Of a stretch of DNA of 49,393 bases, positions 22,603 to 49,393 are shown piece by piece. The stretch comes from an uncultured Lentisphaeria bacterium (GTDB lineage Bacteria > Verrucomicrobiota > Lentisphaeria > Victivallales > UBA1829). The DNA is taken from positions 1 to 49,393 of the forward strand of contig CASDPB010000127.1 in assembly GCA_949282305.1 (NCBI GenBank), written 5' to 3'. The notes below the pieces were generated by a model that was given only the letters and a program-made list of their open reading frames with translations, searched no databases and was not told where the DNA came from. Position 1 is the stretch's first letter; each line of letters starts with the position of its first letter. Made by a program: the position numbers and the translations under genes.

Positions 22603-22604
22603 TC

Positions 22605-23126: not shown

Positions 23127-23127
23127 C

Positions 23128-23907: not shown

Positions 23908-23908
23908 C

Positions 23909-26134
23909 ATGGGGCTCGGATCATTTCTGAAAAAATATGCGGAGGCAAAGGGCGCAGTGTCGCCCGCGACACCGCACACGTCTGTTTCTTCACAAATGGT
24001 TTCAGCAAATCCAGTGTCGCCCGCGACACTCCCGGCAGTCAATCCGGTGTCGCCCGCGACACTGGTTCCTTCCGAATCTCGCAATCTCGCAACTTCGCAA
24101 TCTTGCAATCTTGCAACGCTCCCGGATGTGATTTCCCATGTAAAACATCAAACAGTTTTAGCAAACACAGTGTTGCCGGCGACACTGCACCGGAAAGTGC
24201 AGGAGCTTCCGCGCGAGGAGCGTCTGCTGCGCGATGAAAAATGCCTTTATATTAAAATGTGTTACGAGCTGCATGTCAAGGAAAGAAAACCGTGGCCTGC
24301 CGCCGCCTCGTTCGTCGCGATCCATTTCCGCGACCGGTTCCCGATGCTCGCGGCAAAAAACCTGATGAATCTTTCGAACCTCCGGAACTGGCGCGCGCAG
24401 CTCTGCGAGAATCCCGGCGCAAACAGACCCGATCCGAACGCTCCCCCGGATTTCCGCTACATGGACAATCTGATCCGCGACTACGGACACACCCGCGGAC
24501 TTTACGGCGATCCGCGTTTCTACATCCAGCTGAAAGCGATCATCATGAGCACGAACAAAGCGGTTCTGAACAAGGAATACCGCAAGCTCGCGGACTCGTG
24601 GATGCGCGAATATCCGGAGCTGAAAATCCCGAAACTCAACCAGGTCCGGTATCATCTGAAATCCCTGCCGCCGCGCCTGATGGCGCTTGCCTGCAAGGGG
24701 GAAACCTGGTATGCGCAGCATTACGAGAACTACATCGCGCGCGATCCGGACTCCGTCAGGGTGAACGAGGACTGGGTCGCGGACAACCTCGAATGCGATT
24801 TCTACATCCGCGTCCCGGACGGCAACGGCGGCGAGAAGGCCGTGCGCCCGTGGGTCTGCGCGATCATGGATGTGAAGTCCAGGTATATCGTCGGCTGCCT
24901 GCTGATGGAAAACGGAATCGACAACGCCGTGATCCGCGCGACGCTCGCCGCCGCGATTCTGAATCACGGCCGCCCGATGCGGTTCGTCATGGACAACGGC
25001 AAGGACTTCGGCAAGCGCGGATTCACGACGCCGGTGGTGTTCACGCCGTCCGTCGACAACTCCGTGGTTTACGAGCACAGCATCCTGAAGGAGCTCGCGA
25101 TCGAACCCCGCTTCACCGATCCCTACAACGCAAAAGCCAAACCCGTGGAGCGGTTTTTCAAGGAGATCAACGAGTTCTGCCGGGAGGAGCGCGGATGGGT
25201 CGGCAACTGCATTGAGAACCGGCCGTCGAGCGCCGAACTCTGGAGCCGTCCGGAGAACTGCAAATACCTCAAAGACCGCGATGCCGCTGCAAAGTTCCTG
25301 AATAAGATTCTGAATCATTACCATGCGCTTCCGCAGCCGGACAGCAAATATCTGAAAGGGCTCTCGCCCGATCAGGCGTTCCGCAGTCCCGGCAATGCCG
25401 CGCGCCCGGTCGCCAGCATTCAGGAGCTCGCGTTTGCGTTCCTGATGCCGATCCCCGAAAGCCGCATCGTCGAGCCGCGCGGACCGTCCGTCACGGTCGG
25501 GCGTGTGCGCTATGTCGCCGAGCCAGGACCCGGACGCGAAAAGCTCTGGATGTATGACCGCAAGCCGGTGATGGTCAAGTTCGACATGCAGTCCATTCAA
25601 TACTGTTACGTGTTCGATCTCGACGGCACGCCGCTGGCGATCTGCCGCGCCGAGCAGCAGATCCCGTATTTTTATACGGACAAGGAAGAGGAAGCCGTGC
25701 TCTCCAAAGCGCTCGCGGAGAAAAACCATGATAAAAAAGTCCTCAACGGACTGCTGCTGTCGCACACCGGAGGCCATCACAAGCTCGATCCCGAAACGAT
25801 CGCGCAGCTTCCGCCCGAAGCCTTCGAACATCCCGCGAAGCTGCGTCTGGTCGCCAGCCGCACCGCCGTCAAAGGCGATTCCCACAATCCGAAAATTCAT
25901 GTCACGAAACAGGAATTCAAGGAAAAATCGCAAACAGTTTTAACAGACAATCCAGTGTCGCCCGCGACACTGGAAGAAAAAAAGAAAAACCGGGAACTCG
26001 ATCCGGAGCTCCGCAGGAAACTGCTCGCCACAATCAACGGTGAGGAGGAAACCGGACCGCGTCCCGTCATTCCAACCATAACAAAAGAAGAAGAGGAGAC
26101 AAACCATGTCACACGAATCGTCAACCCTTATTAA
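23909..26134 (+). CDS. MuA-like DDE transposase
   Basis: 741 residues from ATG 23909 (two bases after the previous stop). Residues 1-95 are a disordered linker with four VSPAT/VLPAT copies and one SRNLATSQ stretch made from repeated DNA. DDE core: DWVADNLECDF (D292), RFVMDNGKDFG (D362) and AKPVERFFKEIN (E414), with Mu-like spacing. A beta-barrel-like region follows (VGRVRYVAEPGPG, residues about 530-600), then a C-terminal tail that would contact MuB. Performs DNA strand transfer for integration and replicative transposition. The usual N-terminal end-binding domains look reduced. Confidence 0.94.
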   Translation: MGLGSFLKKYAEAKGAVSPATPHTSVSSQMVSANPVSPATLPAVNPVSPATLVPSESRNLATSQSCNLATLPDVISHVKHQTVLANTVLPATLHRKVQELPREERLLRDEKCLYIKMCYELHVKERKPWPAAASFVAIHFRDRFPMLAAKNLMNLSNLRNWRAQLCENPGANRPDPNAPPDFRYMDNLIRDYGHTRGLYGDPRFYIQLKAIIMSTNKAVLNKEYRKLADSWMREYPELKIPKLNQVRYHLKSLPPRLMALACKGETWYAQHYENYIARDPDSVRVNEDWVADNLECDFYIRVPDGNGGEKAVRPWVCAIMDVKSRYIVGCLLMENGIDNAVIRATLAAAILNHGRPMRFVMDNGKDFGKRGFTTPVVFTPSVDNSVVYEHSILKELAIEPRFTDPYNAKAKPVERFFKEINEFCREERGWVGNCIENRPSSAELWSRPENCKYLKDRDAAAKFLNKILNHYHALPQPDSKYLKGLSPDQAFRSPGNAARPVASIQELAFAFLMPIPESRIVEPRGPSVTVGRVRYVAEPGPGREKLWMYDRKPVMVKFDMQSIQYCYVFDLDGTPLAICRAEQQIPYFYTDKEEEAVLSKALAEKNHDKKVLNGLLLSHTGGHHKLDPETIAQLPPEAFEHPAKLRLVASRTAVKGDSHNPKIHVTKQEFKEKSQTVLTDNPVSPATLEEKKKNRELDPELRRKLLATINGEEETGPRPVIPTITKEEEETNHVTRIVNPY
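23957..24185 (+). repeat. Four in-frame palindromic repeats inside the transposase 5' end (fifth at 25955-25970)
   Basis: GTGTCGC-CC-GCGACAC at 23957-23972, 24014-24029 and 24047-24062; GTGTTGC-CG-GCGACAC at 24170-24185; a fifth exact copy at 25955-25970 near the 3' end. All read V-S-P-A-T (once V-L-P-A-T) in the transposase frame. Copies 2, 4 and 5 share a left flank of the type AGTTTTA.CA.AC..CAG, a piece of which recurs in non-coding DNA at 28986-29000. Between copies 3 and 4 lies TCGCAATCT tract 5 (24075-24117). Confidence 0.9.
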
Positions 26135-26882
26135 GACCACCACCAGCAGAAAAATCTTCCGGTTTCTGGACGGCGCCGCCCGCCTGGGACAGTTCTCCTA
26201 CATGTTCGGTCCCACGGGACGCGGCAAAAGTTTCATCACACGCAAATGGATCGAAGCCAAAGGCAATGCCGCGTGCGTCCGCGCAAGAACCGGCGTCACG
26301 CAGACCGGACTCCGGAAGCAGATCAGCCTTGCCCTGTTCGGCGACGACGGCGCGCGGGAACATGAGATACTGCAATACTTTTTGGAGCATCCCGGCTTTG
26401 TCCTGGTCGTGGACGAGGCGAATCATCTGCTCATGGACGGCAATCTCCGGAGCGCGAAGTGTCTGGACTCCGTCCGCGATTACCATGACGCAGTGCAGGA
26501 GGCGGGCGGCCGCATGAGCGTCGTATTCATCTTCACGGAATACAGCCTCGACCGTCTGCGGAAGTGCAGGATCGCCGCATTCCTTCAGCAGTTCATCAAT
26601 CGGGGCGACAATCATCTGGACATCCCCCGTAAAATCTCCCGCGCCTACGAGATCATTCCCACGGTCAGAGCCTATATTCCCGATCCGCCGGAGGGGCTGA
26701 TCAATGAGGCATGCCGCTTTCACGATATCCGGTCGTTGCACAAACGGCTCGAGGCCGCCGTCAATCACTGCAACAAAACCGGTGCGCCCGTCAGCGCTGA
26801 AATCCTTGCCGGACTTCAGCTCCAGTTCGAGACCGGCAGTTACGAAGACGAAGACGCAGACCGGAGATTTCTTAACTCTTAA
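26106..26882 (+). CDS. MuB-like AAA ATPase, transposition target selector
   Basis: 258 residues. Walker A GPTGRGKS at residues 35-42, Walker B VLVVDEAN at 99-106, sensor-type segment SVVFIFTEYSLDRLRKC. MuB polymers bind target DNA, stimulate MuA and give target immunity. The usual N-terminal HTH of Mu MuB is absent, as in the shorter B proteins. Overlaps the transposase by 29 bases, so the two are coupled. The C-terminus (YEDEDADRRFLNS) runs into the long inverted repeat. Confidence 0.9.
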   Translation: MSHESSTLIKTTTSRKIFRFLDGAARLGQFSYMFGPTGRGKSFITRKWIEAKGNAACVRARTGVTQTGLRKQISLALFGDDGAREHEILQYFLEHPGFVLVVDEANHLLMDGNLRSAKCLDSVRDYHDAVQEAGGRMSVVFIFTEYSLDRLRKCRIAAFLQQFINRGDNHLDIPRKISRAYEIIPTVRAYIPDPPEGLINEACRFHDIRSLHKRLEAAVNHCNKTGAPVSAEILAGLQLQFETGSYEDEDADRRFLNS

Positions 26883-26894
26883 CTGGTCAATGGA

Positions 26895-26988
26895 CAGAAA
26901 AGCAGGTCAAAGGGCGGCAGCCCTTTCCTCCACTGATCACTGATCACTGACCACTGAAAATAACTCTTAACTCTTAACTCTTAACTGA
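26895..26988 (-). repeat. Right arm of long inverted repeat (partner 17381-17474)
   Basis: Begins 13 bases after the MuB stop. Contains hairpin AAAGGGC-GGCA-GCCCTTT (26909-26926), CACTGATCACTGATCACTGA, and three TTAACTC units. The match to the reverse complement of 17381-17474 extends over the whole length with short gaps. A shorter copy of its end (TAACTCTTAACTGAA) recurs at 28808-28822, before another strong ribosome site. Confidence 0.88.
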
Positions 26989-27002
26989 AACCGGAGGTTT
27001 CC

Positions 27003-27212
27003 ATGATTTACGAGGCAAGGATCAGATTGAGCGCGGGCAAACGCAAATGGATGTTTACGTTGAGTCGCAACGGCAGGACGATCTTTGTCTCGGATCACAG
27101 TTACCACACGCGGGAGAGCGCGATCCGCGCCGCGCGCCGCCGGGCGGACGATAACCGCACCGGTCTCTCCCTGTCATGGTGCGCCGAGCGCACCACATTC
27201 AAAGTCCTATAA
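27003..27212 (+). CDS. Small basic phage protein
   Basis: 69 residues; GGAGG seven bases before ATG. Predicted beta-beta-beta then a basic helix (HTRESAIRAARRRADDNRTG) followed by a final strand, a layout reminiscent of small nucleic-acid-binding proteins. No family recognised. Its leader comes from the end of the long repeat. Confidence 0.55.
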   Translation: MIYEARIRLSAGKRKWMFTLSRNGRTIFVSDHSYHTRESAIRAARRRADDNRTGLSLSWCAERTTFKVL

Positions 27213-27262
27213 CCATCCGGCCTGTCCGCTTTGTCCGACCGGTCCGACAGAAAGCAGAAGAA

Positions 27263-27457
27263 ATGACATCCCCTGAACTTTTTGAATATCCGAAGCAGCC
27301 GCCGCGCCGGTTGTCCAGACTGGAACGCCGGGCGGCATACCGTGCGATGCGATTCTACCTTGAAGCATCCCCGGAAAACATGCTCGACGGCAGAGAGCTT
27401 GACGCCCTGCCATCCGCTATGGCAAAACTCAACCCTAGAAAACACCGTAAAAAATGA
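27263..27457 (+). CDS. Small phage protein, unknown
   Basis: 64 residues from ATG 27263; an upstream start at 27176 is less likely because its extra residues (IRPVRFVRPVRQ) are made by a GTCCGACCGGTCCGAC repeat. Basic and helical: LSRLERRAAYRAMRFYLEAS. Ends with KLNPRKHRKK. ATGA overlap with the next gene. Confidence 0.52.
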   Translation: MTSPELFEYPKQPPRRLSRLERRAAYRAMRFYLEASPENMLDGRELDALPSAMAKLNPRKHRKK

Positions 27458-27792
27458 GTAAAGAGAAAGTGCAGATCATGATAAAGACAAGCGATCTGGT
27501 CAACAGTGATCTCTGGCGGTTGTTCCCCGCCATCGAGGTATCAAAAACAAAGGACATCCCGTGTGACTATCCCGGCGCGATGGGCGTGCCGATCACCGCG
27601 TGGGATAAACTCTGCCTGGACCGCCGCTTTCAGCTGCTGGACAGCCTTAGACCGAAAATCGGGAACCGCACCATCTTTCAGCGGTTCATCATCCGCAACC
27701 TTCAGCCCGATCTCCCGGAGGAAGTAAATCTTGCGGATCTGCTGCGGCGCAGCGGATCAAAATATGAAATTATAATAAGGAATGAGCAATGA
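27454..27792 (+). CDS. Small phage protein, unknown
   Basis: 112 residues, coupled to both neighbours by ATGA overlaps. An internal ATG nine codons in is an alternative start. Mixed alpha/beta with the segment DLWRLFPAIEVSKTKDIPCD and a final region PEEVNLADLLRRSGSKYEII. No family recognised. Confidence 0.58.
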   Translation: MSKEKVQIMIKTSDLVNSDLWRLFPAIEVSKTKDIPCDYPGAMGVPITAWDKLCLDRRFQLLDSLRPKIGNRTIFQRFIIRNLQPDLPEEVNLADLLRRSGSKYEIIIRNEQ

Positions 27793-28268
27793 AAAATCTT
27801 ACTTCGCAATCTCGCAATCTCGCAACTTCGCAATCTGATTCAAGTCTCGCAGCTTCGCAATCCCGCACTCTTTACCGCGCTTGCCGCAAACACGTCCCGG
27901 AGAGCTGGATCACCGGCTGGCTCGTCTGGGATGGCGATGCCCCGTTTCTGGTCAGGCGCGACCCGCACACCGGCTGGACGTTTTTCGCCGTCGACGCCGA
28001 CACGCTGGCGCCCGTCCCCGATGACGGTTCCTCCCGTCCGACAAGTCCTTCCTGTCCGACAAGTCCTGTCACCCTTGCTTTTACCGCCGACGAGATCACC
28101 ACCATCATCATCGGCATTGCCAGAAAACGCAATGATCTCCGGCATGACCTCGACAAAAAGATGCGCTTCGGCGAGCTGGCGCACGCCGCCGACCGCCGTA
28201 AACGCATCGCGCAATGCGACGCCATGATCAACAGACTCAACGCCGCACTGGAGGCATCCAAAAAATGA
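27789..28268 (+). CDS. Phage protein with repeat-derived N-terminus
   Basis: 159 residues. The first ~28 residues (NLTSQSRNLATSQSDSSLAA) are encoded by TCGCAATCT repeats. A central compact domain follows (WITGWLVWDGDAPFLVRRDP, GWTFFAVDADTLAPVPDD), then a linker SSRPTSPSCPTSP encoded by GTCCGACAAGTC repeats, then a helical C-terminus (DEITTIIIGIARKRNDLRHD). Two different repeat families have therefore entered one small gene. Coupled to GemA by an ATGA overlap. Confidence 0.58.
   Translation: MKNLTSQSRNLATSQSDSSLAASQSRTLYRACRKHVPESWITGWLVWDGDAPFLVRRDPHTGWTFFAVDADTLAPVPDDGSSRPTSPSCPTSPVTLAFTADEITTIIIGIARKRNDLRHDLDKKMRFGELAHAADRRKRIAQCDAMINRLNAALEASKK
27802..27870 (+). repeat. TCGCAATCT repeat tract 6, inside a coding region
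   Basis: Seven or so copies (TCGCAATCT, TCGCAACTT, TCGCAGCTT) with the same GATTCAAG break as tract 2. Translated as SQSRNLATSQSDSSLAASQS in the gene at 27789. Confidence 0.88.
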
Positions 28269-28810
28269 GCGTCAAGGCAATTAAGATCATGCAGAAAAAA
28301 CTGGGATTGCCCGACGCCGATTATCGCGCACTGCTGATGCGCGAGGCTGGTGTAACGAGTTCCACGCAGCTGGACCCGGACGGCGATAAAAAGGTGATGA
28401 ATGCCCTGAACAGACTCATCAACGAGCGGAATCACGCCCGGCATTCCCGTCCGAAAAGCAAAGCCGAGTCCAAAATATGGGCGATCTGGTATCAGGAGCT
28501 CTGCCCGCACTTGGAGCCGCGCTGCCGCAATGTCCATTACCTGGCGGGGATCATCGAACACCGGATCGGCAGAAACATCCTGTCCGACGGACAGCTTCTG
28601 ACGTCGCTGCTGGATCGCGGCGAACTGCATCAGGCGATCGAAGCCCTGAAGAAAGCCGCCGACCAGCGGCAGAAGCCTCCGCGCCGCCTCCGGCAGCCAT
28701 GTCCGTCTCTCAGTCTTTCCGATCCGACAAGTCTGCCGCCCCCTCCGGTTCTCAACGAATTCGGAAATGACGTTCAGGCACACCCCGAACTCGCGGAGGT
28801 CCCGTTTTAA
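28265..28810 (+). CDS. GemA-like regulator (DUF1018, Mu gp16 family)
   Basis: 181 residues from ATG 28265 (ATGA overlap). Family pattern in the N-terminal half: IKIMQKKLGLPDADYRALLM, TSSTQLDPDGDKKVMNALNR, then YLAGIIEHRIGRNILSDGQL and an amphipathic C-terminal helix HQAIEALKKAADQRQ. The last ~45 residues are Pro/Ser-rich, with SDPTSLPPPP encoded by another GTCCGACAAGTC-like copy. GemA alters host gene expression and supercoiling in Mu; its place in the early operon matches. Confidence 0.83.
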   Translation: MSVKAIKIMQKKLGLPDADYRALLMREAGVTSSTQLDPDGDKKVMNALNRLINERNHARHSRPKSKAESKIWAIWYQELCPHLEPRCRNVHYLAGIIEHRIGRNILSDGQLLTSLLDRGELHQAIEALKKAADQRQKPPRRLRQPCPSLSLSDPTSLPPPPVLNEFGNDVQAHPELAEVPF

Positions 28811-29049
28811 CTCTTAACTGAAAGGAGGTTCCCCATGACATAGCAGCCATTCAATAAACCGCAAAAGAGAGCGGGAGAAGCGGACAATTAGCCGTTGTCA
28901 CACTCCCCACAAATCCCGGTGAGCCAATCACCTGAATCTGATTTTACCGCCCGTAGACTACACTTTTTACGGTAACATTTGTATTCAGTTTTAGCAAGCC
29001 GGGATTTTTTTATTTTAAAGATTTTTATTTCAAGGAAAGAAAAGGAATC

Positions 29050-29868
29050 ATGTATGAGTTGGAATTATTTGCCGGAGCTGGAGGAGGCATTCTCGCGCAA
29101 CAGCTACTCGGACATCTTACAGTTGGCGCGGTCGAGATCACGCCATATTGCCGCAATGTTTTACTTCAGAGACAGAGAGATCTCTGCCTGCCGGTCTTCC
29201 CTGTCTGGGACGACGTCACCACGTTCCGGGCTGACAATCCCGAGTGCGCCGCCTACATCGGCTGGCTGCGATCCATCCGGAGCGAGCTCTGCATCAGCGG
29301 AGGCTTCCCTTGCCAGGATATCTCGTCTTGCGGCAAGGGTATCGGCATCGCCGGAGCAAAATCCGGGCTCTGGCACGAGATGGCGCGCATTATCGGCGAG
29401 ATTCAACCGGCGTTTGTTTTTGCCGAAAACAGCCCCATGCTCGCCACGCGAGGACTCGGGACAGTCCTTGAGTCGCTGGCCGCGATGGGGTATGATGCGC
29501 GATGGTGTGTGCTGGGAGCTGACGATCTCGGATATCCGATCATCCGCAAGCGCATGTGGATACTGGGGGTGCGTGACGGCGTCAATGGGCAAGGATATGA
29601 CGCCGGGCGCGGGCAAAGCAGCCCTGTTGCGCAGTACGTATGGAGCTCAGCGGACATCGCTCGTCTGCAAGATGCTGACGTCGACCGGCTGCTGGCCGAC
29701 GGTCTTGCTCTGCGAGCGCCTGATGGGCTGGCCGGATCAGTGGAGCCGGTCCGAGCCGTTGGCAACGGTCAAGTTCCGGCAGTGGCTGCTCTCGCATGGC
29801 GGCTCCTCTCTGGCGGCCTGATCCGCGAGGACAATACTGCGGCAATGTCCATTCCGGACGCCGCGTAA
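29050..29868 (+). CDS. C5-cytosine DNA methyltransferase
   Basis: 272 residues. Motif I ELFAGAGGG (5-13), motif IV GGFPCQDIS with catalytic C88, motif VI ENSP (126-129), motif VIII RKRMWILGV, motif X AVGNGQVPAVAALAWR. At 272 residues it is short for the family, and the space between motifs VIII and X (about 50 residues) leaves only a small target-recognition domain. No restriction enzyme is seen nearby, so it is a solitary methylase that probably protects phage DNA. RBS AAGGAA. Preceded by a 239-base gap. Confidence 0.9.
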   Translation: MYELELFAGAGGGILAQQLLGHLTVGAVEITPYCRNVLLQRQRDLCLPVFPVWDDVTTFRADNPECAAYIGWLRSIRSELCISGGFPCQDISSCGKGIGIAGAKSGLWHEMARIIGEIQPAFVFAENSPMLATRGLGTVLESLAAMGYDARWCVLGADDLGYPIIRKRMWILGVRDGVNGQGYDAGRGQSSPVAQYVWSSADIARLQDADVDRLLADGLALRAPDGLAGSVEPVRAVGNGQVPAVAALAWRLLSGGLIREDNTAAMSIPDAA

Positions 29869-29889
29869 TTTTTCAAAATGGAGGTTTCT

Positions 29890-30771
29890 ATGACAAACGC
29901 AATACGGGCGCCTTTCCCGTGGTTCGGAGGCAAGGCCGGTCACAAGATCAAGGACGCGATTTTGAGCGCCCTGCCGCCCCACAAACGCTATCTGGAGCCG
30001 TTCGGCGGAGGCGCTTCGATCCTGATTTCAAAACAACCGGCGGAGGTCGAGGTCTACAACGACGTCAACCGGGGCGTGGTCAACTTCTTCCGCGTCATTT
30101 CGGACGTCGATTATTTCGGCAAGTTCATGGCGCGGGCCGCGCTCCTGCCGGTCAGCCGCGAGCTTTACGAGGAGTATTCCCGCACATGGACCGGCATCCA
30201 CGATCCCCTCGAGCAGGCGGTGCGCTGGTATTACATCGCGCGCCAGAGCTTCGGCGGGATGTTCGGCCACAGTTGGGGCACGGCGGTCAATTCATCATGT
30301 GCCGGGATGTCGTCTCGGACGTCTCAGTGGATCAGCAGCTTTGACAACCTGCCGCGCGTTCACGAGCGGATGCAGCGCGTCCAGATCGAGTGCTGCGACT
30401 GGCGCGACGTTCTCAAGCGGTTCGGCGGCGACGGCTGGCTGGCATACTGCGATCCGCCCTACGTGACCGGCACGCGCAAGGCGGGCGGCTACGAACATGA
30501 GCTCCACGATCGTGATCACGAGGAGCTGATCCGGACTCTGATCGCCTACGACGGCGCGGTGGTTCTGAGCGGTTACGACAGCCCTCTCTATGCGCCCTTG
30601 CGTGATGCGGGCTGGGACATGCGGACGGTCGAGGTGACATGTTCCGCCGCCGGTCGGACGCGTGCGAGCGGACTTCAGGGTGCTGGCCATGTCAAGGAGC
30701 GCCAGTCCCGGACCGAGTGCATCTGGCGCAATCCCGAGGCGCTTCGCCGGATCGCCGCATCAAACAAATAA
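29890..30771 (+). CDS. N6-adenine DNA methyltransferase, D12 (Dam) class
   Basis: 293 residues from ATG 29890 (GGAGG seven bases upstream; a start four codons earlier is less likely). Motif X-type PFPWFGGKAGH (8-18), motif I LEPFGGGASI (about 35-44), motif IV DPPY (188-191), and a D12-type middle region FGGMFGHSWGT. Starts 21 bases after the C5 methyltransferase and ends just before a terminator. A likely anti-restriction or regulatory methylase (Dam-type DNA methylation controls mom in Mu). Target sequence cannot be read from the protein. Confidence 0.9.
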   Translation: MTNAIRAPFPWFGGKAGHKIKDAILSALPPHKRYLEPFGGGASILISKQPAEVEVYNDVNRGVVNFFRVISDVDYFGKFMARAALLPVSRELYEEYSRTWTGIHDPLEQAVRWYYIARQSFGGMFGHSWGTAVNSSCAGMSSRTSQWISSFDNLPRVHERMQRVQIECCDWRDVLKRFGGDGWLAYCDPPYVTGTRKAGGYEHELHDRDHEELIRTLIAYDGAVVLSGYDSPLYAPLRDAGWDMRTVEVTCSAAGRTRASGLQGAGHVKERQSRTECIWRNPEALRRIAASNK

Positions 30772-40680: not shown

Positions 40681-40692
40681 CGGTGTAAGAAA
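40681..40692 (+). promoter_or_regulatory. CGGTGTAAGAAA box upstream of the sigma-factor gene
   Basis: Twelve bases identical to 41746-41757, located 44 bases before the ATG of the sigma factor. Both copies follow a nearby GGAA but at different distances (25 and 15 bases). Could be part of an autoregulated ECF-type promoter or an mRNA leader element. Confidence 0.4.
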
Positions 40693-40735
40693 TCCTGTTT
40701 TCTCTGGAGTAAGCCGATAAAGAGGAGATTGGCTG

Positions 40736-41338
40736 ATGGCTTTTACAACGAAAAAATCACTGCTGGCGAAGGTCCGCGCAGGGGACGAGGTGTCCTGGGA
40801 GGAGTTTTACGAGGCTTACCGTCCGCTGATCCTGCTGTGCGGCGGCGACTGTTCGCTTACACCGGACGAAAACGAGGAACTTGTGCAGCAGGTCATGACC
40901 GAACTGTTCACCAAGGACATCCTCGGGAAATATGATCCCGATCACATTCCTGAAAACGTGGTGTTCCATTACGATCCGAAACGAGGACGTTTCCGGCATT
41001 TTCTCAAGAAGATCGTGCGGAATCAGGCGATCAGGATTTATCACAGGCGATTCGATCATGCACAGATGGAATCTGCGGAAACGGTCTGCGGGGAGAGTGC
41101 ATTCGATTTGATCTGGGATGAGGAATGGCGGCGGCATGTGCTGAACATGGCACTGGTCGAACTCAAGGGCCGGGTCCAGCCGGAAACGTATGCGGCATTC
41201 GAGATGTATGCGATGCAGAACCGGAAACTGGATGAGGTCTGCAAGTTTCTGGATATGTCGCCGGCTTCGGTCTATACCGCCAAAAGCCGGTGCATTGCAA
41301 CATTGAAAGAAATTATCGCGAGTCTGGAGGAGAAATAA
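40736..41338 (+). CDS. ECF-like RNA polymerase sigma factor
   Basis: 200 residues; AGAGGAGA before ATG. Region 2: VSWEEFYEAYRPLILLCGGD, ENEELVQQVMTELFTKDILG, RGRFRHFLKKIVRNQAIRIY. Region 4 HTH: RKLDEVCKFLDMSPASVYTA then KSRCIATLKEI. This resembles the ECF sigma groups abundant in Planctomycetes/Verrucomicrobia/Lentisphaerae. The anti-sigma-like gene starts one base after its stop, so the two act as a pair and probably control this locus. Confidence 0.88.
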   Translation: MAFTTKKSLLAKVRAGDEVSWEEFYEAYRPLILLCGGDCSLTPDENEELVQQVMTELFTKDILGKYDPDHIPENVVFHYDPKRGRFRHFLKKIVRNQAIRIYHRRFDHAQMESAETVCGESAFDLIWDEEWRRHVLNMALVELKGRVQPETYAAFEMYAMQNRKLDEVCKFLDMSPASVYTAKSRCIATLKEIIASLEEK

Positions 41339-41339
41339 A

Positions 41340-41570
41340 ATGAATGAGCATTACACGAAAGAGGAATTGGACCAGTACCGCAACGGAGGAATGTCCATCC
41401 TGCGGAAAATCGGCTGTTCGACGCATTTGAAAAACTGTCCGGCATGTGCGAAACTGCTGGAGGAACTGAACGCGGATGACCAGCTGCTGCGCGATCTGCG
41501 CGGCAGTGTGGAGCTCTATCAGCAGCTTGCCCGGAAAACGAATACACGTCCTGCTCCCAAAACAACATGA
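41340..41570 (+). CDS. Zinc-finger anti-sigma-like protein
   Basis: 76 residues. CSTHLKNCPACAKLLEEL matches the H-X3-C-X2-C zinc motif of ZAS-type anti-sigma factors, preceded by an N-terminal helix (YTKEELDQYRNGGM). There is no membrane segment, so it would be a soluble regulator sensing a cytoplasmic signal or acting with a partner. GGAGGAG lies just upstream of the ATG, within the sigma-factor 3' end. Confidence 0.78.
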   Translation: MNEHYTKEELDQYRNGGMSILRKIGCSTHLKNCPACAKLLEELNADDQLLRDLRGSVELYQQLARKTNTRPAPKTT

Positions 41571-42231
41571 AAGTTGCAAGTCCCTGAAAAAAGCAACAGC
41601 TTATTGATTTCAATTTTATCTCTTTTGCTGAAGCGGGCTGATCTCTTCCCGTTTGCAAAGATAAAAAACAATGTTTTTTTCTGCATGGACATAAAATGTC
41701 CGACTCTGTCTGCTATCTTGTTATTTATGGAAAATCGTTTCCCGGCGGTGTAAGAAAACCGGGGAATTTACGATGTTAGTAAAACAGAACGGAAAATCAT
41801 GTCCGGGACAAAAGAGTGCAGAACAATCGGAGCTTGAAAAGAGGAGAGAGAAAATGTACAGGGAAGTGAGGAGTTTTAGAAGGATTTTTACTTGTCTTAA
41901 AGTTTACTTTCCGGTTTGTATTGTCAAGAAATATACGTATATTATGCAAACGCCGAAAATAGTGAACACATGCGGACAATGCGATATATCAGATAAATCT
42001 CAGGCAAAAATAGAACTTCTCCGGTCTGTACGCAACTGCCGGCTTTTTGCGGGATGCGGGGAAACTTCAGTTCCCGATCCGGAACGGAAGGCATTTGCTG
42101 TATTCAGAGAAATCCGGAGAAATGTCTGTCCTTCGGATAATCAGGATCAGGTCTTAACGGTATCCGGATGTGCGATGCACACCGGACGAAATAAAATCAA
42201 TAGATAACATAACAGAATCAAGGGGATTGCA
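41571..42231. other. 661-base region before the M48 operon, probably leader/promoter
   Basis: AT-rich at first. Holds the second CGGTGTAAGAAA box (41746-41757). A 144-codon plus frame (41773-42207) begins 16 bases after the box but has no ribosome site and a composition unlike its neighbours; it is not called. A palindrome ATATACGTATAT lies at 41931-41942. The M48 gene has its own site AAGGGG seven bases before its ATG. Confidence 0.55.
41746..41757 (+). promoter_or_regulatory. Second CGGTGTAAGAAA box
   Basis: Identical to 40681-40692. It lies 475 bases before the M48 gene and could mark the promoter of the five-gene operon, putting it under the sigma factor encoded upstream. This is inference from sequence identity alone. 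Confidence 0.4.
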
Positions 42232-43542
42232 ATGAATGATCTTTTGGAGTTTTTGTGGGACTGCATTAAGGGTCTGTTCCGGGGAATTTTCTGGTTAGGT
42301 ACGCTGCTGTTTGAGTTCCTGCCATGGCTGTGGAACGGTTCCGAAGAGGACGATGCAACCTGGGAAGGGCGTTTTATTCGTCTGTTGATGACGTTGGCGG
42401 GGGGCGTCCTGATCGGCTGCTGTCTCTGTCTTTTAAACTGGGCAGCACAGCCGAAACTTTCCGTTCTTGAAAAAATCGACGCCATCCAGGTGAGTTTCGA
42501 CCGGCTTGCGATCAACCGGAAAACTCTGATAAACGATTTGAAGCAGCATCCCCTCGAAAAGCGCGTGGAAGTTCCCAGTCATCTGCGGAAACGTTTTCTG
42601 ATCCTGACGGATGACCAGCTGAACAAAATTGATGCGGCATATCTGGCGGAAATCAAAAAACTGGAAGTCGGTCTGCAAAATGCGAAATACCGGAAACGGG
42701 CGGAAGGGATTGCATCCCGGATTCAGTCGGTCATGGAACGCAAGCCGAGCGGAACCGTCTATCTGCTGGACACCGACGAATTTCAGGCATTCTGTCTTTC
42801 CGGAGGGAGCATCATGATTACAAAAGGTCTGATGGATCAGCTCTCCGATGACGATGAACTTGCCTTTGTCATCGGGCATGAATACGCTCATTTTCTATGC
42901 CGGCATACCGGAGAAAGCATTACGAAAGGCATGATTGCGCAGGAATTCGGTGAGACTTTTTTCTTCGAGGAGAAGCCGGAGAACGCCGGGAACAGCCTGA
43001 AAGCGTCATTTGCAAAACTCGGATACCATTATGGGGTGCTGATCGGCGTCCTGCTCCCATACAGCCGCACGATGGAATACGAGGCGGACCGTCTGGGCGT
43101 TCTGCTGATGAAACGGGCGGGATTCAATGTACAGGGGTCGTTCAAGGCGATGGAGAGGATAGCGGCAATGGATCAAGACAGTTCAGCAGTCAGTCATTTT
43201 CTGTCCACGCATCCGAAGGGAGAAAAACGACTTGACGAAATCCGGGAGGCGGCGGCTCTTCTGGAAACCTCCGATACCCCCGTCTGGGGCTCGAAGCTGA
43301 CAGTTGCCACGGAATCGGTAAAAGTCGCGGCAATCAAGAAATGGCTTGCGGCCAGGGAGAAGAAGGCGGTTCCTCCTGCGGAAGAAAACACAATGAACCA
43401 GACGGACAAGCTCAAAGAGAAGTTAATGAACACAAAAAATGCGGCTGCAGATACCGCAGACAAGCTCAAAGAGAAGTTAATGAACACAAAAAATGCGGAT
43501 ACAGATGCCGCAGAAGACAGTGACAGGCAAAAACAGAAATGA
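42232..43542 (+). CDS. Membrane-anchored M48-family metallopeptidase
   Basis: 436 residues. Two N-terminal hydrophobic segments (GLFRGIFWLGTLLFEFLPWL; LLMTLAGGVLIGCCLCLLNW). Zinc motif HEYAH (H216, E217, H220) and third ligand in EYEADRLG (E284); SGGSIMITKGLMDQLSDDDE is the typical M48 segment before HEXXH. HtpX/Oma1/LoiP-like envelope protease, catalytic side outside or in the periplasm. The C-terminus carries two exact copies of DKLKEKLMNTKNA. ATGA overlap with the DUF3142 gene. Confidence 0.88.
   Translation: MNDLLEFLWDCIKGLFRGIFWLGTLLFEFLPWLWNGSEEDDATWEGRFIRLLMTLAGGVLIGCCLCLLNWAAQPKLSVLEKIDAIQVSFDRLAINRKTLINDLKQHPLEKRVEVPSHLRKRFLILTDDQLNKIDAAYLAEIKKLEVGLQNAKYRKRAEGIASRIQSVMERKPSGTVYLLDTDEFQAFCLSGGSIMITKGLMDQLSDDDELAFVIGHEYAHFLCRHTGESITKGMIAQEFGETFFFEEKPENAGNSLKASFAKLGYHYGVLIGVLLPYSRTMEYEADRLGVLLMKRAGFNVQGSFKAMERIAAMDQDSSAVSHFLSTHPKGEKRLDEIREAAALLETSDTPVWGSKLTVATESVKVAAIKKWLAAREKKAVPPAEENTMNQTDKLKEKLMNTKNAAADTADKLKEKLMNTKNADTDAAEDSDRQKQK
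43405..43512 (+). repeat. 54-base tandem duplication in the 3' end of the M48 gene
   Basis: Two copies (43405-43458, 43459-43512); the first 40 bases are identical. Encodes DKLKEKLMNTKNA plus five variable residues twice, an amphipathic helix. A recent duplication that keeps the frame. Confidence 0.92.
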
Positions 43543-44633
43543 CGAGAATATATGGCATTCTGAAACGGCAAGTCGGACTTGTCCTGTGTTTTCCGCTCTG
43601 CGCCTTATTTTGCGCGGAACCGGACTTCTACGTCTGGCAGCGGCAGCACACGCCGGAACTGAAATCGGCGGTTGCGGAGTTTTACCGCAAATGTCCGGGA
43701 CGGCTTTACTTCCTTGCGGGGGAAATCGAAAACAACGGACATGTGATCCGGATTGATCCCCTGAAAGCCGTTGATTTCACCCGCGCCGTTCCCGTAGTCC
43801 GGATTCATGTGAAAAATCTGAAAAAAACGCCCGCGGCGCTGGCGGAGGAGATCATGAAAGTATATATTCCGTGGAAGGCGGCGAATGCTTTGCAGATCGA
43901 CCTCGACGCACCGGAATCCCGGCTGGACTATTACCGGAACGTCATGCTGGAACTGCGGAAAAAACTGCCGGGTGCCGAACTTTCCGCCACGGTTCTGCCG
44001 TGTCACCTCAGACATACTGTCTCTTTCCGTGCGCTGGCGTCGGCCTGCGATTATTATGTGCTTCAAGTGCATGGGCTGGCGCGTCGCAACAAGACGTGGT
44101 CGATTTACGATCATGCAGAGGCGGTCAAGGCGGTTACGCGGGCGGAATCGTTGAAACTGCCGTTCAAAACCGCCCTGCCGCTTTACTGCAGCCGGGTCGG
44201 CGGACAATGGGTCAAGCCCGACATGGCGAAGGTGAGCGAACTGGCGTCGGTCTGCGGCGAAGTGATCGGATTCCGTCTGGGGATTCCCGGCGACGGTTCT
44301 GCACTGGATCTGGAAACTGCGCTCCGGGTCTGTCGTGGACAGGGCTATGCTCCGAAAGCGGAAACCCGCTGGGAACAGAAAACCGGCGGAACGTGGCACC
44401 TTTTCGTCCGGAACTGCGGTTTTTTCGCCGAACGGATCACTCTTTCGCTGGATTTCAAGACCCTTCCGGCGGATCTGGACACGTTCAACCGCGCCAGTCT
44501 GAACGGAAAACACAATGAACTGACACTGGTTCTGCCGCCGCCGGGTATGGAAAAACCGTATCTGTGGGTGCGGACCGGGTCGAATGAAAAACCGTTGACA
44601 ACGATTCAAATACAAGGAAAAAACAAGTTATGA
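43539..44633 (+). CDS. DUF3142-like exported protein
   Basis: 364 residues. Signal peptide at 1-26 (GLVLCFPLCALFCAEP), then FYVWQRQHTPELKSAVAEFY, the characteristic DUF3142 opening. The middle reads as a TIM-barrel-like fold (ALQIDLDAPESRLDYYRNVM, ACDYYVLQVHGL, GVIGFRLGIPGDG-type strand as VIGFRLGIPGDG), compatible with a glycosidase-related domain. C-terminal beta domain. The family is of unknown function. ATGA overlaps on both sides fix it in the operon. Confidence 0.8.
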   Translation: MTRIYGILKRQVGLVLCFPLCALFCAEPDFYVWQRQHTPELKSAVAEFYRKCPGRLYFLAGEIENNGHVIRIDPLKAVDFTRAVPVVRIHVKNLKKTPAALAEEIMKVYIPWKAANALQIDLDAPESRLDYYRNVMLELRKKLPGAELSATVLPCHLRHTVSFRALASACDYYVLQVHGLARRNKTWSIYDHAEAVKAVTRAESLKLPFKTALPLYCSRVGGQWVKPDMAKVSELASVCGEVIGFRLGIPGDGSALDLETALRVCRGQGYAPKAETRWEQKTGGTWHLFVRNCGFFAERITLSLDFKTLPADLDTFNRASLNGKHNELTLVLPPPGMEKPYLWVRTGSNEKPLTTIQIQGKNKL

Positions 44634-46825
44634 AATATTGCAGTATGCGCAATCTTCTTCTGCTGCTTTCAACGGCGGCAATCGGTCTTGCCCCGGCTGA
44701 AAGCCCGGCATGTGGACCGTATTTTCAGCCGCATTACGTCAATGGGCAGTCCCCATATTTGACTGTGCTGCATCGGAAACAGGCGGTCCGGCGGCTGATC
44801 GCCGATCTGGACGATCTGATCCCGAAAGTTCCGGAAATCCCGGACGGAGCTGTTTGGGAAACCGCAGTCAGGCAGGATTTCACCGCGGCAGTCGAGCGGT
44901 ATCTGCCGAAACTTCCCCCGGAAAAGAAACAGGAACTGATCCAGGATTATCTGAAATGTATGCAGGACCGTCCGACCAATCTCAAAGAAGTCATGAAGAA
45001 TCTTCCGGAAGAACTGACGGAATTCGCGCTCTATCGTGCGGGCGTCGCAGAAATGGAACCGGGCGGCAGGGAGATTCCGCCCTCGTGGAAAAAACTGCTG
45101 GAACTGCCCGGTAAATCGCGGCATTTCCGGACGGTCTGGGTGTATTTCATGCTGGGCAATTATCTGAAGCAGGACTGCGGGCGGTATTATCAGGCGTGCC
45201 GGGAGGCGGCAAGGGCAGGATTCGCCGACACGCCGGGACTGCTCAAGGCATCCTACAGGAACGAATTTCGTTTTACAGCCGATCCGGTCAGGAAAATTCA
45301 CCTCGCGCTCGAATTGCAGCGGAACAGGCCCGATCTGGAACTTCTGACAGAAGAATATCTCTCCGTGATTCCGCATTCCGATGCCGAATGCACCGCCATG
45401 CTGGCGGATCCGCTCTGCCGGGAGGTGCTGGTGATTTTCGGCTGCAATCGGAAAATTTTTCAGCAGGAAGTTTGGAAATATCAATTCCGGAATGCGGACA
45501 TCCTTGCCTGGCGCGCATACGAAGCGGGCGAGGTGGAGCTGGCGGAAAAATATCTGAAACTGCGAACGCGCGACACGCTGCTTTCCACTTATATCGAGGC
45601 GAAAATCGCCCGATACCATGGGAACAATGAACTGGCGATTCAAAAGTTGCGTCAATGGCTGAAATTCGTGGAGAAGATCGACCCGAACGACCGTGCGGAC
45701 ATCGTCGGGATCAAGCATGTGAGCGATCCGTGGAACACCGAACCGACTTATCCGCTGCAGCAGGATATTTACGGTCTGCTCGGCAGTGCACTGGTTCTGC
45801 GTCGGGATTTTACGGAAGCGGCGATGTTTTTCTACCGGGCCGGTCAGATCGAAGCCGATGTCATGTATATCGCGGAAAATCTGATGACGCTGCCGGAACT
45901 GACGGTCTTTGCCGACTCCGTTTCCGGCGATCTGAATTCAGAAGACCAGGAAATCCGCCAGGCGGCGCAGAGCATCCGGCACATGACCGCCCGCAGAGCA
46001 TTCCGGGAAAACAAATTCGACATCGCGCGGAAATATCTGCCGGAGGAATATAAAGGAATACTGGATCTGTATCTTGCTTTCATCCATGCCTCCAAAGATG
46101 TCTCCAAATCCTTTGACAGCTTAGCATTGAATCTTTACAATGCAGCCAGAATCATGCGCTGGTACGGGATGGAACTTTGCGGAACGCAGGGCGCACCGGA
46201 TGCTTTTCCCGACGGCGCCTGGGGCATTTCCGCGGATTTCGAGGACTGTCCGGATTGCAAATATGATCCGAAAACCGACCGCTGGACGACGGTCTGCGTG
46301 AAACACAAGGAAGATTGCAAATATGCGACCGGACAATTCTGGACACGGACAGATATCTTTCATACTCCCGAACCCGGACGCTCCCCCGTGCCGCGGAATC
46401 AGCGTTTTCATTACCGCTACCGTGCTGCGGAACTTGCGAAGCAGGCGGGCGATCTCGCACAGGATGAAGATCTGCGGGCTCTTGCCAATTTGTTCGGCGG
46501 GGAGTGTCTGCGCTACCGCGCGCCGCGAAAGGCGGATTTCTTCTACAAGCGGCTGGTAAAACAGTCTCCGAACAGTCCTGTCGCCAGAATCGCGGACAAA
46601 CTCCGCTGGTTCCCGAACAGTCCCACGCTGAAAAAAGAACTGGGCAGTGCGATGCCGTACAAATCGCTTGACGAAGTGAAAAAAGTAATCGGAACAGCAG
46701 ACATTGAACTGCGGGAAATTCTGAAACAGCGGGAGAAAGCACCGGAGGAGAAAAAAACTGACAGTCCGCCGGAAGAGGCTTTCTCCGCCCATGATGCAAC
46801 GGGCTTGCCCCAGGAAACAATCTGA
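44630..46825 (+). CDS. Secreted helical-repeat (TPR-like) protein
   Basis: 731 residues. Signal peptide MRNLLLLLSTAAIGLAPAES then ACGPYFQP, so the mature protein may begin near a Cys. The body is repeated helix pairs with TPR/Sel1-like spacing (AYEAGEVELAEKYLKLRTRD, HGNNELAIQKLRQWLKFVEK, LRRDFTEAAMFFYRAGQIEA). A Cys-rich stretch near residue 540 (CPDCKYDPKTDRWTTVCVKH, then DCKYATG) could bind metal. C-terminal tail polar. Genes of this kind next to DUF3142 recur in bacteria as an uncharacterised pair (recalled from general knowledge, not checked). Likely scaffold of the system. Confidence 0.75.
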   Translation: MKYCSMRNLLLLLSTAAIGLAPAESPACGPYFQPHYVNGQSPYLTVLHRKQAVRRLIADLDDLIPKVPEIPDGAVWETAVRQDFTAAVERYLPKLPPEKKQELIQDYLKCMQDRPTNLKEVMKNLPEELTEFALYRAGVAEMEPGGREIPPSWKKLLELPGKSRHFRTVWVYFMLGNYLKQDCGRYYQACREAARAGFADTPGLLKASYRNEFRFTADPVRKIHLALELQRNRPDLELLTEEYLSVIPHSDAECTAMLADPLCREVLVIFGCNRKIFQQEVWKYQFRNADILAWRAYEAGEVELAEKYLKLRTRDTLLSTYIEAKIARYHGNNELAIQKLRQWLKFVEKIDPNDRADIVGIKHVSDPWNTEPTYPLQQDIYGLLGSALVLRRDFTEAAMFFYRAGQIEADVMYIAENLMTLPELTVFADSVSGDLNSEDQEIRQAAQSIRHMTARRAFRENKFDIARKYLPEEYKGILDLYLAFIHASKDVSKSFDSLALNLYNAARIMRWYGMELCGTQGAPDAFPDGAWGISADFEDCPDCKYDPKTDRWTTVCVKHKEDCKYATGQFWTRTDIFHTPEPGRSPVPRNQRFHYRYRAAELAKQAGDLAQDEDLRALANLFGGECLRYRAPRKADFFYKRLVKQSPNSPVARIADKLRWFPNSPTLKKELGSAMPYKSLDEVKKVIGTADIELREILKQREKAPEEKKTDSPPEEAFSAHDATGLPQETI

Positions 46826-46882
46826 TTACGGAAAATCCGGCAGGGGCGTCGATAAGCAATAAGTGACTTGAAAGGTTTTAAG

Positions 46883-47872
46883 ATGAAAAAGGCATTTATC
46901 ATCAGCTCTGTCATTCTGATTTTGCTTTTCCTCGCAGCATATTTTGTGAAACCGGGCGCAGAGGGGATGAAGATTCCTCTCCGGCCTGATTCTCAGCAGG
47001 AGAATACGGCTGCGTTATGCCGCCAGATAGAGGAAGCGGAGAAAAAATATAATGCGGACTGTCAGGAACTGCTCTCAGAATTTTTGCCGGACCTTGAAAA
47101 AAGAACTGCCCCGGATTTCGAGAAAGCTGACCGTGCTGTTCCCGGAGTTGTGAAAGAGTTGTGCAGTTTCAAAGTCTGCGTGAAACTCTGCTGCAAGGCG
47201 GTGAAGGACAAAATCAAAGGAACCCACGACTTCATGGATGCCTACACCGCCGCAATGGATGCTCCGATTATCCGTCCATGTGTCCATGCCAACTTGGTTG
47301 CCTCCGATATGCTTCAGAACCTTCAGCTGCGTCTGAAAGAAAGACATGCCCGGTATCTCACTGATCTCGCGACGATCTGCAGCAATGACGCTTCTGATGT
47401 GAAACTTCCGCCGAAGGATCTCGAAAAACTTCAGAATTGTCTTGAAACGGTCGCGGGAACGGTTCAGACAACTTATTTGAAAAAAGTGATGGCGGGGATC
47501 GGGACAGCCTTTGAGGTGGTCTTTATCCGGGAATCTTGCGGATACATCGTAAAACTCTTTGCGAAACCGGTGGCAAAAATCTGCGCTTCTGCGGGGGCAG
47601 CCGGAATCTGTGCGGCGGCAGACGGACCGCTGCCTTTGGGAGATATTGCCGGAGCTCTGATATCCATTGGCGGACTGTCATGGACGGTATGGGACATTTA
47701 TGATGTAATGTATGTCATGCCGAAGAAACTCAACGCCGAACTGCGGAATGGAATTGCCTCGACAAAAGCGAAACTGCTGGAGGAATCACGTAAGCAGGCG
47801 GAAAAAATCGTACAGGCATACCGAGAGTCCGGCTGCAGAATCAATCAGGAATTGAAGGAACAGCTGAAATGA
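46883..47872 (+). CDS. Membrane protein of unknown function
   Basis: 329 residues from ATG 46883 (GAAAGG seven bases upstream; a TTG five codons earlier is unlikely). N-terminal membrane anchor (AFIISSVILILLFLAAYF). Helical middle with several Cys. A hydrophobic C-terminal region (ICASAGAAGICAAADGPLPL, GALISIGGLSWTVWDIYDVM) suggests two short membrane-associated helices, followed by a coiled tail (EESRKQAEKIVQAYRE). It sits 57 bases after the helical-repeat gene. No named family. Confidence 0.7.
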   Translation: MKKAFIISSVILILLFLAAYFVKPGAEGMKIPLRPDSQQENTAALCRQIEEAEKKYNADCQELLSEFLPDLEKRTAPDFEKADRAVPGVVKELCSFKVCVKLCCKAVKDKIKGTHDFMDAYTAAMDAPIIRPCVHANLVASDMLQNLQLRLKERHARYLTDLATICSNDASDVKLPPKDLEKLQNCLETVAGTVQTTYLKKVMAGIGTAFEVVFIRESCGYIVKLFAKPVAKICASAGAAGICAAADGPLPLGDIAGALISIGGLSWTVWDIYDVMYVMPKKLNAELRNGIASTKAKLLEESRKQAEKIVQAYRESGCRINQELKEQLK

Positions 47873-47909
47873 TGTTCCGCTGAAAATAAAAACTTGTTAT
47901 GGTGGTGTC

Positions 47910-48728
47910 ATGATGAATATGTTCAAATGCTTTTGGGTGATGGCAATCTGTTCTGCTGTCGTATCTGTCAATGCCGCTGGAACGGGACTGATGACAAAAG
48001 TTGCAGAAGAAACTTTGGAAATCGCGGCCAGGCGGAGCGGGCGGACTCTGACAGAGGGAATGAAGATCACGCTGGGACGTGAAATGCTGAAAATGACGGC
48101 AAAATATGGTGATGATGTTCTGCCGTTGGTCCGGCACGGAGGTCTTGAAGTTTTGGAACAGGGAATCCGTCATGGAGACGACTTCTGGAAACTCTGCAAA
48201 GCTGTTCCGGAAGCCTCCCGCAGTCTCGCCTTGCACTCCGACGAACTTCTTCCGCTCGCAAAACGCATCGGTCCGGATGTGCTGATCCTTGAGGCAAAAG
48301 CCCCGGGACTGTCCGCACGGTTTGCAAAAGAATTCGGCGATGACGGCGTCCGGTTCGTTGCACAACACTCTCCTCAAGATGTGCCGCGCCTGCTTGGATA
48401 CGCCTCAAAAGCTGATTCCCCGGAAACAAAACGTCTTTTCTTTGAAAAATACCGGAAATCCAGGAACCCTTCTGCATTTCTGCAGGCATTGAACTGGAAA
48501 AATATCATGGCAGGCGGTCTTACCACTGCTGCGATTGTAGGCGCATACAAGATTTCAGACGGTATTCAGGATGGACTGAAAGATCCCAAAGCGGCAGAAC
48601 AGACGGTTGATACCATATTGTCCCCGTTTCGATATGCCTTGTATGCTTTATTTGTCATACTTTTAATTCCCCTTGGAATCAAAAGTATCGGCTGGAGCGT
48701 TGCCGCATGGAAAAAGAGGAAAAACTGA
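47910..48728 (+). CDS. Exported/membrane helical protein of unknown function
   Basis: 272 residues. N-terminal signal (FWVMAICSAVVSVNAAGTG). The middle is a set of ~15-20-residue helical repeats around H/YGD: AKYGDDVLPLVRHGGLEVLE, GIRHGDDFWKLCKAVPEA, RFAKEFGDDGVRFVAQHS. C-terminal membrane segment (ALYALFVILLIPLGIKSIGW) and a basic cytoplasmic end (WKKRKN). 37 bases after the previous gene and probably the last of the operon. No named family; with the 329-residue protein it may form a membrane complex. Confidence 0.72.
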   Translation: MMNMFKCFWVMAICSAVVSVNAAGTGLMTKVAEETLEIAARRSGRTLTEGMKITLGREMLKMTAKYGDDVLPLVRHGGLEVLEQGIRHGDDFWKLCKAVPEASRSLALHSDELLPLAKRIGPDVLILEAKAPGLSARFAKEFGDDGVRFVAQHSPQDVPRLLGYASKADSPETKRLFFEKYRKSRNPSAFLQALNWKNIMAGGLTTAAIVGAYKISDGIQDGLKDPKAAEQTVDTILSPFRYALYALFVILLIPLGIKSIGWSVAAWKKRKN

Positions 48729-49393
48729 TTTGCACATGGAGTGTCGTCCGGAAAAACGTATTTCAGGCAGTTTTTTGTAAATTTTTGAGCTGTCCCATGG
48801 AGATGTCACAGCGGCACGGCGATGATATAGTCCAGCTTGAGAACCAAATTCGCAGCGGATCCGGTTGCCTTGGGTTGTGTTGTCAATCATTATAAATCTA
48901 GGCGGCAATACATCATATATTGCGCATCTATTGACGATAAACCAGGTTTTTTCATGGTGTGTATAATGCAGGGATAGAATGTCCCGTCGCCGGACTACCG
49001 AAACAGCCGGACATGCCTGTATGGCAGAGAAGGACTGTTTTTCATGGGTGAGGATACCGCGGTATTGCTGATGCTCCATGCCGGAATGAGCCGCCGATAC
49101 AGCATTACGCTGTAGTCCCCGATTCGGTGAGATGTCGGTGGGACTTATGGAATGTTCACGCCTGTGTCCTGTTGATGGAACTACTTGCCGCACAAGAGGA
49201 AACCGGACATCTGCCCCGCAGTGTTTTCAGTATTTTTCTGAGATAATTTTTTCTTCCGGATTTGCATTATCAGGATTACTGAATTATATTCATTAATAAA
49301 CTGTAATATTTCATGTTCCACTTTTGCAGTTGAGCTCGTTTATACCGTTATATTTCGGCAATACCCTCTGAAACCCGTCAGGGGAAGAAGTTA
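48729..49393. other. 665-base gene-free right end with several stems, candidate RNA region
   Basis: No credible ORF. A -10-like TATAAT at 48962-48967 precedes a run of potential stems: GGGATA/TGTCCC, AAACAG/CTGTTT (enclosing TGCC/GGCA), palindrome ATACCGCGGTAT, CAGC-attac-GCTG, and a long-range pairing AGATGTCGGT (49130-49139) with ACCGGACATCT (49202-49212). This density suggests a structured RNA, but no known class (RNase P, tmRNA, 6S) could be matched with confidence. Confidence 0.4.

Follow-up and report, generated by a model that had tools for sequence, protein, structure and literature searches.

A composite Lentisphaeria gene cluster carries a two-gene module of predicted membrane proteins that recurs beside differing stress and defense switches

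INTRODUCTION

Do seven adjacent genes that read as one envelope system belong together? The question is raised by contig CASDPB010000127.1, a 49,393-nucleotide (nt) stretch of DNA (hereafter the window) from an uncultured bacterium of the Lentisphaeria (GenBank assembly GCA_949282305.1). Between positions 40736 and 48728 it carries genes for an extracytoplasmic function (ECF)-type sigma factor, a zinc-finger protein, an M48 protease, a DUF3142 protein, and three further proteins of 731, 329, and 272 residues, all on the plus strand. The original prediction, made from the sequence alone, took these genes for a single system of regulated surface assembly or envelope stress governed by the sigma factor. 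Our comparisons indicate that the cluster is three modules placed together plus a lone M48 gene, not one system, and that its last two genes form a pair that probably serves as a reusable membrane effector, turned on when stress or infection occurs.

The comparison sets were 36 genomes of the same GTDB family and 387 genomes across the phylum; the window's own genome (G000) is represented by an assembly of 4.36 Mb that is 96% complete. Genes outside the window were called with a simple codon-based caller. The mapped loci come mostly from metagenome assemblies, and several loci of the pair lie at contig ends.

RESULTS

The 329-residue protein (46883 to 47872, from an ATG start where the list of open reading frames gives TTG at 46868) is helical and has a hydrophobic N-terminal segment by simple hydropathy, as does the 272-residue helical-repeat protein encoded next (47910 to 48728), which carries an additional hydrophobic segment at its C terminus. 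Membrane anchoring or export across the membrane is accordingly predicted for both. In the alignment of the 329-residue family (A3), D247, G248, P249, and D254 are invariant within an ADGPxPxGD motif, which reads ADGPLPLGD in the window (residues 246 to 254, codons at 47618 to 47644). The structural model of this protein (predicted local distance difference test [pLDDT] score of 79) comprises an N-terminal anchor followed by long helices; the final two form a hairpin with the motif at its turn. The model of its partner (pLDDT of 89) shows short helices strung one after another and a membrane segment at the C terminus. Neither protein matched Pfam, NCBIfam, PADLOC, or PHROG significantly, and the 329-residue family matched no plasmid or phage record. 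Against the sequences of solved structures, the 329-residue profile retrieved nothing significant, and the sole match of the 272-residue profile was a de novo designed protein (E of 0.007).

Wherever a locus is long enough to reveal both, a 272-type gene almost always stands beside a member of the 329-residue family. The long form of the pair was found within the family in G032 (two copies), G014, G012, and G004 (at a contig end) and beyond the family in G095, G366, G277, G212, G285, G186, G309, G219, G161, and G049. By sequence comparison, then, the two genes constitute an undescribed, portable two-gene module of predicted membrane proteins that is inherited together. A single viral contig carries the pair (IMGVR_UViG_3300042282_000389; L202 / L247), where it looks like cargo: it lies behind MuB-like, GemA, and methylase genes of a Mu-like phage, with an AAA ATPase gene directly before it.

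There is also a short form (about 259 plus 130 residues), which occurs in many genomes before genes for a beta-clamp-like protein, a Cas4-like PD-(D/E)XK nuclease, and a DUF932 protein. At these loci (L092, L097, L199, L200, L201, and others) a small protein is encoded after the beta-clamp-like gene, and the cluster sometimes includes a dynamin gene. This conserved cluster is possibly an unrecognized mobile element.

Judged from gene neighborhoods, the pair recurs beside different switches: the ECF sigma factor with its zinc-finger protein and a kinase, Cas13b or Cas1, TerY-P, a STAND or AAA ATPase, and a Mu-like phage. One link to clustered regularly interspaced short palindromic repeats (CRISPR) is a locus of G032 (C145), where the pair is followed by a 1,090-residue Cas13b, Cas1, a Cas2-like gene, and a CRISPR array. 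This Cas13b has the HEPN motifs RNYFAH and RNQVFH and matches the PADLOC Cas13b model (4e-15); its match to the NCBIfam Cas13b model (6e-9) is below the cut-off. The second G032 pair adjoins an array whose repeat nearly matches that of a second Cas13b locus (C252), and the two may be the ends of one locus. At C252 itself, a short 3' remnant of a 272-like gene precedes Cas13b. In the window's own genome, contig C102 (G000:C102) holds a counterpart of the sequence upstream of this Cas13b, with 93 to 99% identity; there, a decayed 272-like gene occupies the point at which Cas13b should start, and there is no Cas13b. In G219, which belongs to a different class, 0.46 kb separates a 272-like gene from the CRISPR array at a Cas13b locus, and in G309, Cas1 (6e-79) directly follows the pair. 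Cas13b was found in 4 of the 387 genomes, three of which carry the 329-residue family; a hypergeometric calculation, on rough assumptions and uncorrected for kinship, gives P of about 2e-4 when long-form genomes are counted and 2e-3 when all are. A Cas13b fragment and the pair stand on separate contigs in G012.

TerY-P genes (vWA, kinase, and PP2C) flank the pair in G095, with a dynamin-type GTPase gene adjoining, and lie beside it in G032 (C33). Taken together, the partners found elsewhere (Cas13b, CRISPR arrays, Cas1, TerY-P, and STAND) point to defense or stress rather than to surface assembly. Of the functional label first attached to the cluster, the word envelope fits the predicted location of the proteins, whereas surface assembly finds no support.

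Short RNAs resembling transfer-messenger RNA (tmRNA), 81 nt long and without a message part, recur among the TerY-P, CRISPR, and pair genes of G032 and in G000:C102 (L084 4393 to 4473, 5098 to 5178, and 9768 to 9849 on the minus strand; L095 1984 to 2064; L147 2030 to 2110). They have a covarying acceptor stem and a CCA end, the latter missing at L084 9768 to 9849, and three score above the Rfam tmRNA cut-off.

The sigma factor of the window (200 residues, 40736 to 41338) matches the NCBIfam ECF profile TIGR02937 at 42.9 bits, exactly the cut-off of 42.9, and has sigma regions 2 and 4 only, for which the Pfam scores (18 and 15 bits) are below cut-off. Close orthologues occur in seven genomes (80% identity in G014 and 60 to 66% in the six others), usually with a zinc-finger gene next and a kinase nearby. 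The 76-residue protein encoded next to it in the window (41340 to 41570) is a putative anti-sigma factor of the ZAS type: within its Cx2HLx3Cx2C motif, HLKNCPAC matches the Hx3Cx2C zinc motif, it has a weak match to the ChrR anti-sigma factor (E of 3e-4), and its gene adjoins the sigma gene in most orthologous loci. Hydropathy reveals no hydrophobic or membrane segment in it.

A putative ECF promoter, TGTAAGA-N17-AGTAAG (40684 to 40713), lies 52 nt before the sigma start. The element TGTAAGA-N17-AGTA is present upstream of all eight close sigma orthologues, with spacing identical to the base; in the shuffle control, no gapped word occurred in more than 4 of 9 regions across 100 shuffles. There is a single exact copy in the whole window genome, and in a scan of ten genomes the exact element occurred once each in G000, G014, G032, G033, and G012, always before the sigma gene; in G010 it additionally precedes a Sel1-like gene upstream of the kinase. 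From this conserved promoter, we predict that the sigma/zinc-finger pair is autoregulated.

The same element, with unchanged spacing and AGTC as its -10 part, also precedes the 329-type gene in G014 (by 65 nt) and in G277 (by 29 nt). These two genomes, which come from different families, have one gene order in common: pair, kinase, sigma factor, zinc finger. A zinc-finger gene of the same family adjoins the 329/272 pair in G285. Established computationally, as are the promoter and the protein family, the link of the sigma/zinc-finger genes to the pair thus recurs in G014 and G277 and probably in G285. The proposal that the sigma factor governs the cluster therefore gains independent support for the 329/272 genes, through this linkage and the promoter seen upstream of the pair in G014 and in G277, while the window itself offers a half-site only. 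This candidate second site (41746 to 41775) contains the 12-mer CGGTGTAAGAAA, whose only two copies are this one and that of the sigma promoter (2 matches against 0.20 expected). It lies 0.49 kb before the M48 gene, its -10 part is poor and fails to match, and no strict sigma promoter was found before M48 in the window. The half-site suggests that the sigma factor may control the operon running from M48 to the 272-residue gene.

All seven genes stand where they had been placed, as open reading frames, profile matches, and codon usage agree. The five from M48 onward are packed as described, with ATGA overlaps between M48 and DUF3142 and between DUF3142 and the 731-residue gene, and gaps of 57 nt before the 329-residue gene and 37 nt between it and the 272-residue gene; they therefore look like one transcription unit. 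They do not directly follow the regulatory genes, as had been stated, since 661 nt separate the end of the zinc-finger gene (41570) from the M48 start (42232).

The genes of the cluster differ in their nearest relatives. In trees, the window copy of the 329-residue gene groups with two CRISPR-linked copies of G032 and with G095 (support of 99/97), and the 272-residue gene groups with the two CRISPR-linked G032 copies (support of 97/96). The nearest relatives of the window sigma factor and of DUF3142/731 are in G014, which makes the operon a mosaic. In G014, DUF3142/731 and 329/272 stand on contigs separate from each other.

The DUF3142 protein (364 residues, 43539 to 44633) has a hydrophobic N-terminal segment and is an ordinary member of its family with nothing unusual about it (PF11340 at 48.4 bits, 1.6e-12, with a curated cut-off of 30); its profile matches the solved DUF3142 structure 8y6t (E of 2e-6). 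Its regular neighbor, the 731-residue exported helical protein (44630 to 46825), whose profile matched nothing significant among the sequences of solved structures, occurs in exactly the same eight of the 36 family genomes, adjacent and in the same order where mapped. Across the phylum, DUF3142 was found in 48 of the 387 genomes, and in 27 of the 30 loci read, a 731-type gene lies beside it. The plasmid NZ_CP010410.1 of Xanthomonas sacchari, from another phylum, likewise carries DUF3142 and then a 721-residue hypothetical protein of the 731-residue family (L150 5926 to 9322). The near-constant adjacency and the Xanthomonas plasmid mark DUF3142/731 as an ancient two-gene unit, whose function is probably separate from that of the 329/272 pair with which it shares the operon. 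Homologue co-occurrence had been offered as the check on the original prediction, with scattered homologues counting against it. The DUF3142/731 and 329/272 units occur without each other, so most of the supposed system falls apart, and we rejected the whole cluster as one system since its modules differ in phylogenetic distribution.

The M48 metalloprotease (436 residues, 42232 to 43542; PF01435 at 107.7 bits, 8e-31) has the HExxH motif, as HEYAH, at residue 216 and one strong hydrophobic segment (residues 51 to 69), which predicts a membrane anchor. Its nearest NCBIfam family is BepA, far under the cut-off. No close orthologue was found in the GTDB family, where the best relatives, a 34-residue fragment excepted, are less than 40% identical. 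Because no M48 gene was recognized at the other mapped loci of the pair, we rejected M48 as a core part of the cluster.

DISCUSSION

How might the pair act? We infer that the 329-residue protein would extend as a long helical hairpin tipped by the ADGPxPxGD turn, and that the 272-residue protein would be its co-anchored regulator or co-effector. Together they might perturb the inner membrane, by a pore or by remodeling, as a last-line response. In the window genome, the sigma factor, once released from its zinc-finger partner, would raise its own expression and that of the M48-to-272 operon, possibly through the site at 41746.

Several known systems bear comparison with the pair. The type VI-B accessory proteins Csx27 and Csx28 are likewise membrane proteins encoded beside Cas13b, and Csx28 reportedly assembles into an octameric pore in the inner membrane once Cas13b is activated and depolarizes the membrane with Cas13b (PMC12669027). 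Adjacency to Cas13b holds for copies of G032 and approximately for G219, but not for the window. Furthermore, the proteins of the pair are larger and predicted to face the periplasm, they have non-CRISPR partners too, and the HEPN R-x4-H motif is not conserved in the 329-residue alignment; no PADLOC model matched either protein at an E of 0.1 or better, in a search that included no direct comparison with Csx27 or Csx28. TerY-P modules, which have been tied to defense (PMC11090510), are a phospho-switch (vWA, PP2C, and kinase) that recurs as a partner of the pair, with the regulator beside it in G095 and G032 and not in the window.

In fold, the 329-residue model recalls the stalk or trunk of the dynamin superfamily (MxB, BDLP, LeoA, and IniA), which is a long four-helix bundle. 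Nineteen of the 20 best entries in the structural comparison (VIA list) were dynamin-family chains (Z of 9.2 to 12.3, too low to be trusted for this type of fold), followed by F-BAR domains and alpha-pore toxins; all of these are helical bundles that act on membranes. Unlike dynamins, the protein has an N-terminal membrane anchor and no GTPase domain: its model is all helical, and neither Dynamin_N nor any other GTPase family of Pfam matched it. Alpha-helical pore-forming toxins (AhlB/AhlC, SmhB, and ClyA) share the long helical bundle, a similar length, and the multicomponent organization; however, the matches are weaker (Z of 7.5 to 8.6 at a root mean square deviation of about 11 Å for AhlC, AhlB, and SmhB), there is no sequence relation, and the pair is predicted to be membrane anchored, not secreted. 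A resemblance of the 272-residue model to TAL-effector repeats reached a best Z of 6.0 and was not trusted.

We consider the chances about even that the cluster is a composite in which the 329/272 pair is a portable membrane-perturbing effector module under differing switches. Several observations weigh against this interpretation. The fold matches are weak, with no Foldseek E below 0.001 and a best Z of 12.3, which falls short of a trustworthy value for helical bundles. By hydropathy, the ADGP hairpin does not stand out as a membrane segment. About 16 long-form loci were mapped; some are related to one another, and most come from metagenome assemblies. The window pair itself has neither a CRISPR nor a TerY-P neighbor, and a good sigma promoter is lacking immediately upstream of it and of M48. 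G161, the sister of G219, has the same pair block (with a STAND-like ATPase) without CRISPR, and in G224 (L196 7734 to 14854) a TerY-P triad adjoins Cas13b and Cas1, with the pair absent. Consequently, the links are loose and could reflect shared residence on genomic islands.

Such residence is the core of a rival explanation, in which the pair is a module for general upkeep of the envelope or for adhesion that is carried on islands, and its CRISPR, TerY-P, and phage neighbors are mere fellow passengers. The many differing contexts of the pair and the CRISPR-free block of G161 agree with it, and the tmRNA-like repeats around the G032 copies suggest mobile islands. Chance company, however, accounts poorly for a pair immediately before Cas13b in G032:C145 and directly before Cas1 in G309, for the 272-like remnant and the decayed 272-like gene at G032:C252 and G000:C102, and for a sigma promoter right before the pair in two families, which makes the passenger explanation fairly unlikely in our judgment. 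The opposite extreme would make the pair a strict type VI-B accessory in the manner of Csx27 and Csx28, with the window copy an orphan that lost its CRISPR partner. The nesting of the window pair among CRISPR-linked copies, together with the decayed gene and the Cas13b-upstream sequence in the window's genome, could be read in this way; yet most loci of the pair are without CRISPR genes, copies linked to the sigma factor and to TerY-P exist, and the PADLOC search was negative, so that we regard an orphan origin as very improbable.

The notion of one dedicated envelope-stress or surface-assembly system, with the sigma factor controlling M48, DUF3142, and the 731-, 329-, and 272-residue proteins as exported proteins that work together, draws on the tight operon of the window, the recurring linkage of sigma factor and pair, and the candidate half-site upstream of M48. 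It is at odds with the existence of DUF3142/731 and 329/272 as separate pairs elsewhere and with the lack of M48 at the other mapped loci of the pair. In addition, classical envelope-stress regulation of the RpoE/RseA type relies on a membrane-anchored anti-sigma factor released by proteolysis, whereas the 76-residue protein has no membrane segment. A single system therefore seems improbable. Returning to the composite with its portable effector, a more far-reaching version would have the pair act as a general-purpose "plug-in" membrane executioner wired to Cas13b, TerY-P, or sigma alarms, a shared effector joining CRISPR immunity and stress transcription; this we put forward tentatively, as a doubtful extension.

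If the effector interpretation is true, an undescribed membrane effector family would be added to type VI CRISPR and TerY-P defense, and the presence of the same effector under an ECF sigma factor would tie immunity to classical stress regulation. This link is open to direct testing, since the promoter of the sigma factor and the genes of the effector are both defined. Additionally, DUF3142, widespread and uncharacterized, gains a regular partner.

The right border of the cluster may lie beyond the contig, which stops 665 nt past the 272-residue gene; an Rfam search of the last 700 nt of the window returned no match. Elsewhere in the window, positions 22509 to 30771 hold Mu-like phage genes, encoding a Gam-like protein, a Mu-type transposase (rve), a MuB-like ATPase, GemA, and C5 and D12 DNA methylases. 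Near the contig end, positions 49028 to 49311 (minus strand) are a repeat with 85% identity to the first 275 bases of another contig of the same genome (G000:C129), just before a short-form pair.

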